The notes under the pieces are model-generated. The model saw only the letters and a program-made list of their open reading frames with translations, did no database searches and was not told where the DNA came from. The position numbers and the translations under genes are program-made. Positions 46,615 through 63,965 of a stretch of 64,000 nucleotides of DNA are shown here, piece after piece; the first letter of the stretch is position 1; the number at the start of each line of letters is the position of its first letter. This stretch comes from Lachnospiraceae bacterium. GTDB taxonomy: Bacteria; Bacillota; Clostridia; Lachnospirales; Lachnospiraceae. The stretch covers positions 1 to 64,000 of the forward strand of contig JAFZLD010000015.1 of assembly GCA_017553505.1 (NCBI GenBank), given 5' to 3'.

Positions 46615-47235
46615 ATGTCATTAGAAATTTCATCGGTAACACAGGGCGCAAGCGTAGCGCAGACCGCTGCGACTTCGACTGTTTCCAAGGCAACTGAAGT
46701 CAAAGAAGAAAAGGCTGTCGAGACCGTCAAGGAAGACGTGGGCGCAGTCTATGAAAAAGGACAGAATCAGGGCAAGGCTACTTACTCAATCAATAAGATG
46801 AGCAAGGAAGACAGAGATGCCCTTGTTAATCAGCTTAATGCAGACATGGAGAAGCGTCAGGCACAGCTTTTGGATCTTGTTCAGAAGACCATCAGCGGTC
46901 AGGTAGGCGCATACGGCAAGGCAACCGGCGACGATATGTGGAAGTTCCTTGCAAGCGGCAAGTTCACCGTTGATTCGGCTACCAAGGCCCAGGCCCAGGC
47001 GGATATCTCAGAGGACGGCTACTGGGGCGTTAAGCAGACCTCCCAGCGACTCTTCGATTTTGCATCCGCTCTTGCGGGAGACGACGTAGAGAAGATGAAG
47101 TCCATGCAGGAAGCCATCGAAAAGGGTTACAAGCAGGCTGAGAAGACCTGGGGCAAAGAGCTTCCCGAAATCAGCAAGAACACGCTTGATGCCACCAACA
47201 AGCTTTTCGAAGACTACTTCGCATCCAAGCAGTAA
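46615..47235 (+). CDS. Hypothetical helical protein
   Basis: A 206-residue soluble protein with no signal peptide or membrane part. Residues 1-60 are Thr/Ser/Val/Lys/Glu-rich and probably disordered. Residues about 60-110 are charged and helical. The C-terminal 75 residues contain YWGVKQTSQRLFDFASALAG, YKQAEKTWGKELPEIS and LDATNKLFEDYF, a block I recall from poorly characterised proteins encoded near flagellar or motility genes in several phyla. A structural or regulatory role is possible. GGAAAGGAG precedes the ATG. Confidence 0.75.
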   Translation: MSLEISSVTQGASVAQTAATSTVSKATEVKEEKAVETVKEDVGAVYEKGQNQGKATYSINKMSKEDRDALVNQLNADMEKRQAQLLDLVQKTISGQVGAYGKATGDDMWKFLASGKFTVDSATKAQAQADISEDGYWGVKQTSQRLFDFASALAGDDVEKMKSMQEAIEKGYKQAEKTWGKELPEISKNTLDATNKLFEDYFASKQ

Positions 47236-47257
47236 ACAGTATTACAGCGTATTACCC

Positions 47258-47286
47258 GCGGCGGATAGTATCCGCCGCTTTTTTTA
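47258..47286 (+). terminator. Terminator after the gene at 46615
   Basis: GCGGCGGA pairs with TCCGCCGC around TAGTA, followed by seven T residues. Confidence 0.92.
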
Positions 47287-47361
47287 TCGGGGCGCGCGGT
47301 GCGTAGCCTTTTTTCCTTAAAGTGCATACTTTTCTTTTTCCGCGGCACGTAAATTGTTCTT

Positions 47362-47582
47362 TTATCGCAATACGAAAAAAGAATGGATTCTGCGATAAAA
47401 AACCGTTAGTTATGTAAACCATTTATCGCAATACGCTAATCCGTGCCAAATTGCGATAAAAAAAGTGTCAAATCTTATCGCAATTCCGAATGAAATTTCA
47501 TATTGCGATAAATGCCCCGAAATACAGCCTGAAAATGGCCGGAATTTATCGCAGTTTCAGGTAAAATTGCGTATTGCGATAA
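47362..47582. repeat. Array 1: four 37-base inverted-repeat units
   Basis: Units at 47362-47398, 47423-47459, 47475-47511 and 47546-47582 are each exactly TTATCGCA-N21-TGCGATAA. Some extend the arms to TTATCGCAAT / ATTGCGATAA. The 21-base interiors differ completely. Linkers are 24, 15 and 34 bases. The array fills most of the 520-base gap between 47235 and 47756; no coding frame there has a ribosome site. Function unknown. Confidence 0.93.
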
Positions 47583-47755
47583 AGGCGGCGGGAGAAGGAC
47601 CATAGACGGAGCAATATGGACACCAAAAGGGTGGAACAGGCTTATATGCACAAAGAACAATAGTTAGAATAGGATATAATCAGATGAGTTAGACATTGCT
47701 AACAGCATCAAGAGTGGTACAATTTAATCAATAAATACGGAAAGGAAGGACAACG

Positions 47756-48550
47756 ATGGAAGCTTTATCGGATAAGAATGTTTTGATGGGTTTGATCATA
47801 CCTTTTGTGGGAACTGCCGCGGGTTCGGCGATGGTGTTCTTTATGCGAAAGGAAATGGGAAGATTGGTGCAGAAAGCTCTTACCGGCTTCGCGGCGGGAG
47901 TTATGGTGGCAGCGTCTATCTGGAGCTTGCTGATTCCTGCGATGGAACAGTCGGCGCATCTTGATAAGTGGGCATTTGCTCCGGCGGCAGCCGGATTCTG
48001 GGCGGGCGTGTTGTTCCTTCTTTTGCTGGATACGATTACGCCGCACTTGCATATGAATGCGGAGAAGGCGGAGGGTCCTAAGAGCAGGCTGGCGCGTACT
48101 ACGATGATGGTACTGGCGGTTACGCTTCATAACATTCCGGAAGGTATGGCGGTGGGCGTTGTGTTCGCGGGACTGGTGTCGGGATCGGCTGAGATTACGG
48201 CGGGCGGCGCGCTTGCTTTGGCGTTGGGTATTGCGATTCAGAACTTCCCTGAGGGTGCGATTATTTCAATGCCGCTTCATGCAGAGGGCAAAAGCAAGTT
48301 CGGAGCCTTCATGGACGGTATGTTATCCGGTGCGGTTGAGCCTATATTCGGCGCGCTTACGGTGATGGCGGTGGGCTTTATAGTGCCGGCGATGCCGTTC
48401 TTACTTTCTTTTGCCGCCGGCGCAATGATGTATGTGGTGGTGGAAGAACTTATTCCCGAGATGTCGGAGGGTGAGCATTCCAATATAGGTGTTGTGATGT
48501 TTGCGGTCGGATTTACTGTTATGATGGCGCTTGATGTGGCGCTCGGATAA
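47756..48550 (+). CDS. ZIP family metal transporter
   Basis: A 264-residue membrane protein with eight helices. Two metal-site motifs are clear: VTLHNIPEGMAVGVVFA in helix 4 and IQNFPEGAIISMPLHAEGKS in helix 5, plus VVEELIPE in helix 7. ZIP proteins import zinc or other divalent metals. AAAGGAAGGA lies before the ATG. It is downstream of the inverted-repeat array, but nothing else links the two. Confidence 0.93.
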   Translation: MEALSDKNVLMGLIIPFVGTAAGSAMVFFMRKEMGRLVQKALTGFAAGVMVAASIWSLLIPAMEQSAHLDKWAFAPAAAGFWAGVLFLLLLDTITPHLHMNAEKAEGPKSRLARTTMMVLAVTLHNIPEGMAVGVVFAGLVSGSAEITAGGALALALGIAIQNFPEGAIISMPLHAEGKSKFGAFMDGMLSGAVEPIFGALTVMAVGFIVPAMPFLLSFAAGAMMYVVVEELIPEMSEGEHSNIGVVMFAVGFTVMMALDVALG

Positions 48551-60893: not shown

Positions 60894-62624
60894 ATGAAAA
60901 TGCTGCTTAAGCTCAGCAAAGAAGCTATCAAGTTTAAAAACCTTTATATTATAGCCATTTTCTCCACTTTTATGCTTACGGCCATTAACCTTGCGGCGCC
61001 GAGGGCGTTGTCGGCCATGACGGGTATTGTAAGTGAAGGCGTGGATGAAGCGGGAATGTGCAGGATTCTGATACTTACACTGATTCTTGTGGGGCTGTAT
61101 CTGTCCAGGGTTCTTTTCAGATTCCTAAGTAACTATCTTGCGCATAAGGCTGCCTGGTATCTGGTGGGAGACCTTCGTACCAAGGTTTATGACAAGCTTG
61201 AACGCATGCATATCGGGTATTTCCATGACAAGCAGACCGGCGACCTTATGAGCCGAATTGTGAATGATACGAGAGATTTCGAGCTCCTCTATGCCCATAT
61301 GATTCCGGAGACTATAACGAATTTCGTGACGTTTGCGGGCGTTCTTATTATGCTTCTTACGATTAATGTGAAGCTTGCGCTTATTACGTGTGCGCCACTT
61401 CCGTTGATTTTTATTTCGGGCATTATTTTTTCCAAGAAGGTTAGACCGTTCTTCAAGATTTCGCAAAAGAAAATGGGTGAACTTTCCGGTAAGCTTCAGG
61501 ATAACCTTTCGGGTATTCACGAGATTCAGTCTTTTGGTCGCGAAGAGTACGAGACCGGGCAGGTAGATGCCACTAACTTCGAACACATTAAGGCCATGCT
61601 CACGGCGCTTAAATACAGCGGTATTTTCCATCCGACGGTAGAGTTTATTTCGTCAATCGGAACCATCCTTGTGGTGGCTTTCGGCGGACTTCTTGCCTAC
61701 AGGGAAGGGCTTAAAGTAGAGGATATTGTAGCGTTCCTCCTGTATCTTGGATTGTTCTATGCTCCGGTAACGGGACTTGCTAACTTGCTTGAGAGTATGC
61801 AACAGTCACTTGCGGGCGCTGAGCGTGTGGTGGCGATCCTGGATGCGCCCTGTGAGATTAAAGATAAAGACGGCGCAGAGGGTTTAAAAGATGTTAAGGG
61901 CGCCATCACTTTTGAAAATGTCAGCTTCGCTTACGAGACAGGCATTCCGGTGCTCGACGGAGTTTCTTTTGACTGCGCACCGGGTAAGATGCTTGCGCTT
62001 GTGGGACCTACGGGTGTGGGCAAGACTACGCTTACGCAGCTTATTTCCAGATTCTATGAGCCTACTTCGGGCAGGATTCTGATAGATGGGCATGACATCA
62101 AGGATGTGACGATTGAAAGCTTAAGGCAGAATATCTCGCCGGTGCTTCAGGATACGTTTCTTTTTAACGGAACCATCGCCGAGAACATCGGATACGCATA
62201 TCCCGAGGCCGACCTTGATATGATTAAAGAAGCCGCTAAGATAGCCAATATTCACGAGGACATCCTTGCGATGCCTGACGGTTATGATACCGTTGTGGGC
62301 GAGAGAGGATTGAGGCTGTCAGGCGGCCAGAAACAGCGAGTTTCGATAGCCCGTGCGATTCTTCGAAAGTCACCGATTATCATCCTTGATGAGGCGACAG
62401 CTTCTGTTGACGTTGAGACAGAGCGTCAGATTCAGGATGCTATTACGGGAATTGTAGGCTCGCGTACTATCATAGCCATAGCACACCGGCTTTCCACCAT
62501 CCGTAATGCTGACATGATTCTTGTAATAGAAGACGGCAAGATTACCGAGCAAGGTACCCACGAGGAACTGGTGGCGTTAGGCGGAAGCTATGCAAGGATG
62601 AACAGGATACAGAGTAATTCGTAA
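60894..62624 (+). CDS. ABC exporter, fused permease and ATPase
   Basis: A 576-residue half-transporter. Six membrane helices (about 17-310) with the segment MHIGYFHDKQTGDLMSRIVN are the type IV exporter permease; the ATPase has Walker A GPTGVGKTTL, signature LSGGQKQRVSIARA, Walker B IIILDEATASVD and a switch His in AIAHRLSTI. It acts as a homodimer, or as a heterodimer with a partner not seen here, exporting drugs, lipids or peptides. GGGGG lies 8 bases before the ATG. Confidence 0.94.
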   Translation: MKMLLKLSKEAIKFKNLYIIAIFSTFMLTAINLAAPRALSAMTGIVSEGVDEAGMCRILILTLILVGLYLSRVLFRFLSNYLAHKAAWYLVGDLRTKVYDKLERMHIGYFHDKQTGDLMSRIVNDTRDFELLYAHMIPETITNFVTFAGVLIMLLTINVKLALITCAPLPLIFISGIIFSKKVRPFFKISQKKMGELSGKLQDNLSGIHEIQSFGREEYETGQVDATNFEHIKAMLTALKYSGIFHPTVEFISSIGTILVVAFGGLLAYREGLKVEDIVAFLLYLGLFYAPVTGLANLLESMQQSLAGAERVVAILDAPCEIKDKDGAEGLKDVKGAITFENVSFAYETGIPVLDGVSFDCAPGKMLALVGPTGVGKTTLTQLISRFYEPTSGRILIDGHDIKDVTIESLRQNISPVLQDTFLFNGTIAENIGYAYPEADLDMIKEAAKIANIHEDILAMPDGYDTVVGERGLRLSGGQKQRVSIARAILRKSPIIILDEATASVDVETERQIQDAITGIVGSRTIIAIAHRLSTIRNADMILVIEDGKITEQGTHEELVALGGSYARMNRIQSNS

Positions 62625-62644
62625 CTAATTACAAATGATTTTGA

Positions 62645-62680
62645 TTTCAAGCCATGCGAAACGCTTGGCTTGATTTATAT
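62645..62680 (+). terminator. Terminator-like stem after the ABC exporter
   Basis: TCAAGCCA (62647-62654) pairs with TGGCTTGA (62666-62673), with GCG/CGC inside, followed by TTTATATT. Confidence 0.7.
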
Positions 62681-62788
62681 TACGTCTTAGTGTATTCTGT
62701 AACAGATATTTCTGTATGCTTTTTTCATATTCATGTGGCGACTATTCTGTCACGTTTTCACGAATTATTTGTTTTTTATGTACCTGTT

Positions 62789-63130
62789 GACATGCGTAAG
62801 TACGATTAGGTGGATTTAGCATGTCTTGATTTGAGTGGCGTAAGAGATTTATGCATGCGATAGAGTGTTCATGTTCGGTTGGCATGTCGTTTGGCAAGGT
62901 AAATTTATCTAACAACGAAAGTCCTACATGCGAGAACGGAAATAGTTAGATTTCGCATGTAAGCTTATGCATGCGATAAGAGATTTGGCATCTATACATA
63001 TGTCGGAGTCAGAAAATGGACAGAAAATGCTACATGCGAGAATGCACTCGACGTCATATAGCATGTTAAGTCCACTAAAGGAAGAAAACGGCATACATGC
63101 GAAATGGTGGAGAGTATCTGTACGCATGTC
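62789..63130. repeat. Array 2: six 37-base inverted-repeat units before a nuclease-like gene
   Basis: Units lie at 62789-62825, 62852-62888, 62925-62961, 62968-63004, 63031-63067 and 63094-63130. Five have the exact core CATGC-N23-GCATG; the fourth has ATATG as the closing arm. Typical ends are TACATGCGA and GCATGTC; unit three is perfect over 9 bases (TACATGCGA/TCGCATGTA). Interiors differ except for a leading GANA tendency. Linkers are 26, 36, 6, 26 and 26 bases. The last unit ends 22 bases before the TTG at 63153 and 24 bases before the GGAGGA of that gene. Confidence 0.93.
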
Positions 63131-63152
63131 TAATCGTCGATTGCATTACTGA

Positions 63153-63965
63153 TTGGAGGATAGAAATATAAAAGATTACAGAGAAATGCTTAGTGAACAG
63201 TCAAAATGGCTGGATTCACTTCTTACTAAGACAGAAAAAAGCTTGAAAGTTAATAAAACTAAGGGTGATATTGCGCTGAGATTTTCAAAAAGAAACGGGC
63301 AGTATCAATACTACATAGAGGATGATACAGGAAAAAGGCAGTATATCAAGAAAAAAGATGTCAATATGGCAGCGAGAGTGGCACAACGAGATTACGATTT
63401 GGCGCTTAAGAAGACGTTGACTTCTCTTAGATACAGGCTGAACCAATTCATTAATCTCTATGACATCAGCATGGTAGAAGCAGAATATGATAACTTATCT
63501 GAGGCAAGGAAGAGATTGATAGTACCGGTAGTCGATACTGACAGCGATTATATTACAAAATGGATGACAGAACACAGGGGAGGGATGAATCCGTTTCCAA
63601 GAGAAGGGCAATACCTCACTGAACGTGGGGAACTGGTAAGGTCTAAGTCCGAGAAGATTTTAGCTGACCTCTTTAACAGGCATAGTATTCCGTATGTATA
63701 CGAGACGGGCTTTGAACTTGATAATGGGTATTATATTTATCCGGACTTTGCCCTCTTAAATGTCAAAGAAAGGAGAACGATATACTGGGAACACTTCGGA
63801 TTGGCATCGGACGGTGAATATTCAACTAAGGCTTTGCAGAAGTTAAGGCAATATGAGTCAGTTGGAATTGAGGTTGGCGTGGACTTGCTGTTTTCTGTTG
63901 AGGCTGAGAATATGCCTTTGGACGTGAAGAGTATAGAGAAGAAGATTATGAAATACCTGATATGA
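63153..63965 (+). CDS. PD-(D/E)XK nuclease-like protein linked to an inverted-repeat array
   Basis: A protein of up to 270 residues with no signal or membrane part. Residues about 1-125 are helical and very Lys/Arg-rich, suiting nucleic-acid binding. Residues 160-255 look like a restriction-nuclease fold: RSKSEKILADLF (Glu167), YPDFALL (Asp198), IYWEHFG (Glu213, His214), then a Lys/Arg-rich helix. I do not know a characterised homologue. The start is odd: GGAGGA at 63155-63160 points to ATA at 63168; a TTG at 63153 overlaps that site and the first ATG is at 63186. The gene is more AT-rich than its neighbours, which suggests transfer. Confidence 0.75.
   Translation: MEDRNIKDYREMLSEQSKWLDSLLTKTEKSLKVNKTKGDIALRFSKRNGQYQYYIEDDTGKRQYIKKKDVNMAARVAQRDYDLALKKTLTSLRYRLNQFINLYDISMVEAEYDNLSEARKRLIVPVVDTDSDYITKWMTEHRGGMNPFPREGQYLTERGELVRSKSEKILADLFNRHSIPYVYETGFELDNGYYIYPDFALLNVKERRTIYWEHFGLASDGEYSTKALQKLRQYESVGIEVGVDLLFSVEAENMPLDVKSIEKKIMKYLI

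Follow-up and report, generated by a model that had tools for sequence, protein, structure and literature searches.

A stand-alone nuclease-like gene and its adjoining array of inverted-repeat sites in a Lachnospiraceae bacterium: a candidate two-part DNA element

Analysis of the window, a 64,000-nucleotide stretch of contig JAFZLD010000015.1 from a Lachnospiraceae bacterium, showed an array of paired half-sites directly ahead of a nuclease-like gene, and a second array elsewhere. The features were as follows:

47362-47582, no strand: second array, of the TTATCGCA type, with four units (47362-47398, 47423-47459, 47475-47511 and 47546-47582) and no nuclease beside it
62789-62825, no strand: array unit 1, with paired half-sites ACATGCG and GCATGT
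62852-62888, no strand: array unit 2, with half-sites GCATGCG and GCATGT
62925-62961, no strand: array unit 3
62968-63004, no strand: array unit 4, with a degenerate right arm
63031-63067, no strand: array unit 5
63094-63130, no strand: array unit 6
63153-63965, plus strand: stand-alone nuclease-like gene for 270 amino acids, start codon uncertain
63153-63460, plus strand: N-terminal part of the gene (about 100 codons), proposed reader of the arm motif, its boundary inferred from the breakpoint between loci L004 and L051
63591-63956, plus strand: C-terminal PD-(D/E)XK-like domain (residues 147-268), from PADLOC models, with invariant E167, D198 and E213

A sequence-only reading of this DNA had claimed six inverted-repeat units of 37 bases between outer ends, built as CATGC-N23-GCATG with one degenerate arm and ending 22 bases before the gene. 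All six were recovered between 62789 and 63130, the pattern was exact in five (unit 4 being the exception), and the 22 bases run from the last unit to the TTG at 63153. The same reading had called the interiors and linkers unrelated, a claim weakened by partial sharing: units 3 and 5 have 20 bases in common at 90%, and units 2 and 4 carry 14 identical bases around the left arm. Given this shared flank, part of the array probably grew by duplication of some of its units. At least three exact-arm units of one geometry occurred at just two places in the window (62789-63130 and 47360-47583) and at none in ten Markov copies of it, so the array is not a product of chance. Over the whole genome, the strict pattern ACATGCGN{18,24}GCATGT gave 9 forward and 8 reverse matches, and its reversed control gave 2 and 1.

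The 270-codon reading frame starts at the TTG at 63153 or at an ATG at 63186. The region 63140-63190 carries a good ribosome site (GGAGG) yet no in-frame ATG at the usual distance from it, as does the orthologue in genome G013; at another locus (L007), the array's final unit extends over what may be the beginning of the coding frame. Residues 147-268 matched the PADLOC candidate-defence models PDC-S68 (E 2e-23), and the C-terminal domain of every family member compared (31/31) matched them as well. The protein thus shares a related nuclease-like domain with PDC-S68 / HEAT_CxxC_PDDEXK, but the match takes in only a domain at the end of PDC-S68 models of about 1200 residues. In protein alignment A3, E167, D198 and E213-H214 were invariant in all 31 rows. 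The classical PD-(D/E)XK lysine is missing from its usual position, the motif reading E-H-F-G, and nuclease activity of the window protein is therefore likely, though not assured. Pfam gave no family model for the protein among 31 members (one had a weak DUF790 match) and no transposase family at E 0.01, and a profile search of solved structures returned three matches (E 0.05-0.41), none meaningful. The N-terminal domain may resemble the beta-sheet arm-binding domains of integrases.

The organism's own genome (3.13 Mb, 28 contigs) contained nine copies of the gene, the window copy included. All nine adjoined inverted-repeat units, each with its own arm motif (ACATGCG, GTAGG, TGACCC, CCATCCATA, GGCGAAG, TTAGATGC and ATGCATAA) except for L008 and L009, which share TTATCGCA; units at L004, L006 and L009 were read partly by eye. 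The family was present in 14 of 40 genomes from the genus and its wider relatives (own genome included), with one to nine matches each. A scan of genome contigs added 31 further loci. Most came from metagenome-assembled genomes; the records include some under the names Fibrobacter, Eggerthellales, Saccharofermentans and Treponema, as well as the named strain of Baileyella intestinalis.

A strict array, meaning three or more exact-arm units of constant length next to the gene, was found at 41 of 64 homologous loci (upstream of the gene at 32, downstream of it at 9), and the same test was passed by 3 of 2560 and 0 of 2520 shuffles (3/5080 in all). The 23 loci that failed comprised 13 with two such units and 10 with none. 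Four of those without a repeated unit were cut near the gene on one side (L060, L071, L083, L085); the others were L033, L037, L062, L065, L073 and L089, although an array does accompany L074, which is related to L073. Neither of the two Treponema loci (L071, L086) had a strict array, and three distant homologues from genome G030, outside the 64 (L038, L046, L054), had no array. The 64-locus set omits loci that duplicate a place already counted (L026, L040, L049), distant or partial matches (L038, L039, L046-L048, L054, L055) and those matches in the 14 genomes that had no assigned locus; it still holds the near-duplicates L045/L150 (the same place), L002/L060 and L084/L085. L059 was counted among the 41 with its units about 500 bases beyond the gene, and both it and L052 are doubtful among the nine downstream cases. 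Homologues without arrays had been named beforehand as grounds for refuting the link between array and protein; with a strict array at 41 loci and failure at 23, the link was not refuted, and it gains support from these 41 loci together with the exchange of modules between loci.

This exchange involves the array and the N-terminal part (about 100 codons) of the gene at homologous loci. L004 and L051 lie at the same place in two species, with DNA identity of 93% in the upstream flank and 92% downstream from mid-gene, and the array plus approximately the first 100 codons gave no blastn match between them. Their proteins are 99% identical in the C-terminal and 44% in the N-terminal part, and the arm motif differs. 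L005 and L041 showed the same replacement with flanks kept (N-terminal 38%, C-terminal 76%; the L041 array is weak). The L027 protein, compared with those of L007 and L028, had C-terminal identities of 98% and 87% and N-terminal identities of 71% and 66%; the array regions of L007 and L028 contained eight ATGCATAA half-sites each, and that of L027 contained none of these and six of ATGGATAA. Among the 19 pairs whose C-terminal identity is 0.6 or more, which are not independent of one another, motif similarity followed N-terminal identity with rho 0.86 and C-terminal identity with rho 0.63. In the full set of 861 protein pairs, motif similarity bore no relation to N-terminal identity (rho -0.07), which is to be expected if distant pairs have reached saturation. 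The replacement of array and first 100 or so codons as one block, and the change from ATGCATAA to ATGGATAA, indicate that the N-terminal domain probably reads the arm motif. Co-replacement is visible at the level of sequence, and array and reader domain may be regarded as one exchangeable specificity module.

In type I restriction systems, the specificity subunit gains a new sequence specificity by exchange of its DNA-reading domain, the remainder of the gene being kept. The reader domain described here is exchanged in a like manner; unlike type I systems, the sites travel with it, and no methyltransferase or other neighbour recurs. Among 188 flanking ORFs of at least 90 amino acids at 51 loci, no family was found at more than four loci, no methyltransferase was recurrent, and no ORF of this length recurred as a candidate linked antitoxin. 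The L004 protein matched 3 of 50,697 phage records (one match covering at least 80% of the query) and 3 of 72,556 plasmid records (none covering at least 80%). A scan of viral contigs gave three partial relatives, without arrays of three units. In viral scans for arrays, the TTATC(G/C)CA triple pattern occurred on one contig, without an array, and the looser ACATGC pattern gave, among the matches listed, 1 of 80 loci with three units, loosely spaced.

These observations bear on a possible defence role, in which the phased array would keep the nuclease inactive and its loss or change, for example under phage attack, would free the enzyme, with specificity shifting as decoys or inhibitors compete with it in an arms race. 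Holding a toxic or defence nuclease in check would explain the private arrays and the changes of specificity, and the PDC-S68 match in 31/31 members, the several copies of different specificity per genome, the patchy occurrence (14/40 genomes) and the replacement of the specificity module all agree with it. The absence of a recurring neighbour gene of at least 90 amino acids at the 51 loci, the two viral pattern searches and the restriction of the PDC-S68 match to an end domain weigh against it, and we regard a tethered effector of this kind as unlikely.

The distances between units were examined in 56 spacings from 36 curated arrays, with one value per distinct spacing and array. The best period was 10.5 bp (phase -0.01 bp, R 0.843), a fit reached by 0 of 20000 uniform nulls. 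Spacings clustered at 43, 51-54, 62-64, 71-74, 83-85, 94-95, 104-106 and 124-127, the rest being 115, 147, 159 and 177. Left out of the 36 arrays were six orthologues (L009, L028, L029, L032, L042, L050) and five weak or gene-distant arrays (L004, L052, L059, L065, L070); with the five weak arrays restored (41 loci), R was 0.695 at 10.5 bp, again with 0 of 20000 nulls. The array detector constrains unit length but leaves the distance between units free, and distances of 35-180 were included. With spacings that follow a 10.5-bp period, the protein probably contacts duplex DNA from one side of the helix. Comparable behaviour is known for NrdR, a helix-phase-dependent repressor whose site spacing is set by the DNA helix (PMC12051234). 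Site spacing here likewise follows the helix; unlike NrdR, the present family has a nuclease-like domain, long private arrays and a different motif for most members seen.

Across six orthologous array pairs, divergence was 7/418 in arms (1.7%), 92/643 in interiors and 96/672 in linkers (14.3% each), so that arms were about eightfold more conserved than interiors in the summed pairs, with the contrast weak or absent in two of the six (L030/L029, against linkers, and L022/L106). A further pair, L031/L032, gave no match and is not counted among the six. Conserved arms, free interiors and helical phasing bear out the earlier proposal of selection on paired sites read by a protein. CRISPR-like spacers were not indicated, as interiors diverge in the same way as linkers and no neighbour recurs at 51 loci.

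The sequence-only reading had also offered RNA hairpins processed by the protein, and the inverted arms could indeed form stems of 7-9 bp. A hairpin would need mostly two-sided changes. Among 84 arm positions deviating from the consensus of their array, 81 were one-sided and break the pair; the other three were two-sided and all still pair (0.9 two-sided positions expected by chance). Together with the 10.5-bp phasing, the equal freedom of interiors and linkers and the lack of an Rfam match in the six loci scanned, this makes the hairpin explanation highly improbable. Even less credence is given to simple tandem duplication without function. Some units do share flanking bases and the interiors at L005 resemble each other, but the eightfold conservation of arms in the summed pairs, the helical phasing and the recurrence of arrays at 41/64 loci with different motifs speak against it.

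Arrays were also found away from the gene. The second window array shares its motif with nuclease-linked arrays on contigs C7 and C8. In the genome, the TTATCGCA motif had 32 strict units in nine arrays, on C5, C7, C8 (two), C11, C14, C18, C19 and C22; those on C7 and one of the two on C8 adjoin nuclease genes, and the C19 array is the one in this window. The ACATGCG motif had three further genome arrays without an adjoining nuclease, and the ATGCATAA and GGCGAAG motifs gave no strict paired units elsewhere in the genome. For two motif classes, therefore, inverted pairs outside genes accompany a cognate gene of the same genome, and for two they do not; with two of the four genome-searched classes having no arrays elsewhere, spreading is not general.

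Among 18 genus genomes, the ACATGCG pattern occurred in three (own; G013, which has the orthologue L042; and G015, a lone match). TTATC(G/C)CA-type array DNA occurred in four of the 18 (G000, G002, G013, G017), with a marginal G016 match in addition, and all four hold an array of this type beside a nuclease; the search scored part of the candidate places (17 in most rows), and its counts are lower bounds. Frequent arrays unrelated to the gene family had been put forward earlier as evidence against the link. Arrays without the gene do occur, and in the genus genomes searched they occur only in genomes that also hold a nuclease-linked array of the kind, the exceptions being one lone unit in G015 and the G016 match, which has no unit.

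Similarity between copies of the TTATCGCA-type arrays stops near the outermost arms. Nearly all arrays were uniformly TTATCGC or TTATCCC (L152 was mixed and L160 gave no array). The nuclease-linked array of G017 is TATCCC and its dispersed form TATCGC, and a variant unlike the nuclease-linked array was also seen in 2/9 G000 and 1/9 G013 arrays. Neither the window array at 47362-47582 nor the C8 array at 59 kb is found at the orthologous site in G013 or G002, the C22 arrays at 207 kb and 275 kb are missing from theirs in G013, and the C13 array is present in both G000 and G013. At these presence/absence sites the flanking intergenic sequence also differs, and no clean insertion with a target-site duplication was evident. 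Spacings of dispersed arrays (27 loci) gave R 0.85 at 9.3 bp against 0.74 at 10.5 bp; they are mostly copies of one family near 51, 61 and 71 and were not counted as support.

Three further observations concern the surroundings of these arrays. In the comparison of window positions 46615-48550 with contig C51 of G013, the upstream ORF was 96% identical and the downstream transporter-like gene 84%, a difference that suggests recombination near the second array. Linkers of TTATCGCA-type arrays (47362-47582 and several copies, L118-L126) frequently contain a further pair, GTTATGTAAACC and GGTTTACATAAC or near matches to them, possibly a site for another protein. The nuclease-less ACATGCG arrays L022, L023 and L024 lie in clusters of small genes, named by eye as acetyltransferase, phosphotransferase, Nudix-like and tautomerase-like, which partly differ between close species, like gene cassettes.

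The placement of arrays also bears on an autoregulatory operator, whereby the protein would repress its own gene through the array, its nuclease fold being inactive or meant for another DNA substrate, and dispersed arrays would mark co-regulated genes or relics. The upstream position at 32/64 loci, the end of the window array 22 bases ahead of the first codon and the position of three dispersed ACATGCG-type arrays just upstream of small genes (by eye) are in keeping with such a role. It accounts for upstream arrays, but not for downstream and stand-alone ones: at nine loci (including the doubtful L059 and L052) three or more units follow the gene, all ten stand-alone arrays examined lay between the longest ORFs in several gene orientations, and dispersed TTATCGCA arrays were found even between convergent genes (L120). 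In addition, three to eleven exact units exceed the need of a simple repressor, and the sole promoter-like match in 62600-63200 is on the other strand, a number below the shuffled mean. Autoregulation is thus a doubtful, if conceivable, explanation.

The explanation favoured here, to which we give about an even chance, is a two-part, self-linked DNA element with a role like that of REPIN/RAYT, consisting of a stand-alone nuclease-like protein and a private, adjoining array of its own sites. The protein would combine an N-terminal DNA-reading domain with a C-terminal PD-(D/E)XK-like nuclease domain. Through the N-terminal domain, its dimers would recognise both inverted half-sites of a unit. 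As units lie whole helical turns apart, the dimers bound along an array would share one face of the DNA and form an extended complex; such dimer binding and one-face stacking, inferred from sequence, have strong support. The nuclease domain may then act on DNA marked by the array, arrays being maintained in this way and, in some subfamilies, copied to other intergenic places; this step, suggested by analogy, is the weakest of the scheme. Points that tell against the scheme are the two motif classes without arrays elsewhere, the lack of a clean insertion, the variant mismatches and 9.3-bp period of dispersed arrays, the 23 loci that fail the strict test, the array-less distant homologues from G030, the two orthologous pairs with little or no arm contrast, the missing correlation over 861 pairs and the absence of the lysine from its usual position.

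RAYT is a tyrosine transposase of the HUH type; the protein here is PD-(D/E)XK-like, with no transposase family by Pfam in 31 members. REPINs are described as paired inverted short sequences with spacers, dispersed between genes and located near a specific gene in the same genome, and spread by that gene has been proposed (PMC3116915). Of the known systems, this is the closest in logic, with intergenic paired inverted sites near a specific gene of the same genome in both cases. The present arrays differ from REPIN/RAYT in having many units, in the joint replacement of reader domain and sites, and in features pointing to duplex reading with helical phasing, not hairpins. A REPIN/RAYT-like role would explain why arrays are linked to the gene, dispersed and turned over; it would leave unexplained those motif classes that have no additional arrays. 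No description of a nuclease-array arrangement was found in open-licence PubMed Central papers, and the arrangement looks like an undescribed kind of genetic element. The chances seem evenly balanced that it is a new class, in which nuclease and private phased array form one unit, specificity is an exchangeable module, one cell holds several modules, arrays can spread, and the array directs or restrains the nuclease.

The family occurs mostly in gut and rumen bacteria of several phyla. If the explanation is true, these bacteria carry a partnership of protein and DNA whose recognition domain and target array evolve, and are exchanged, as a pair. Dozens of naturally paired reader domains and cognate sites would then make the recognition code learnable from sequence, and the dispersed arrays would be an independent example of REP-like elements, the purpose of which has long been in question.
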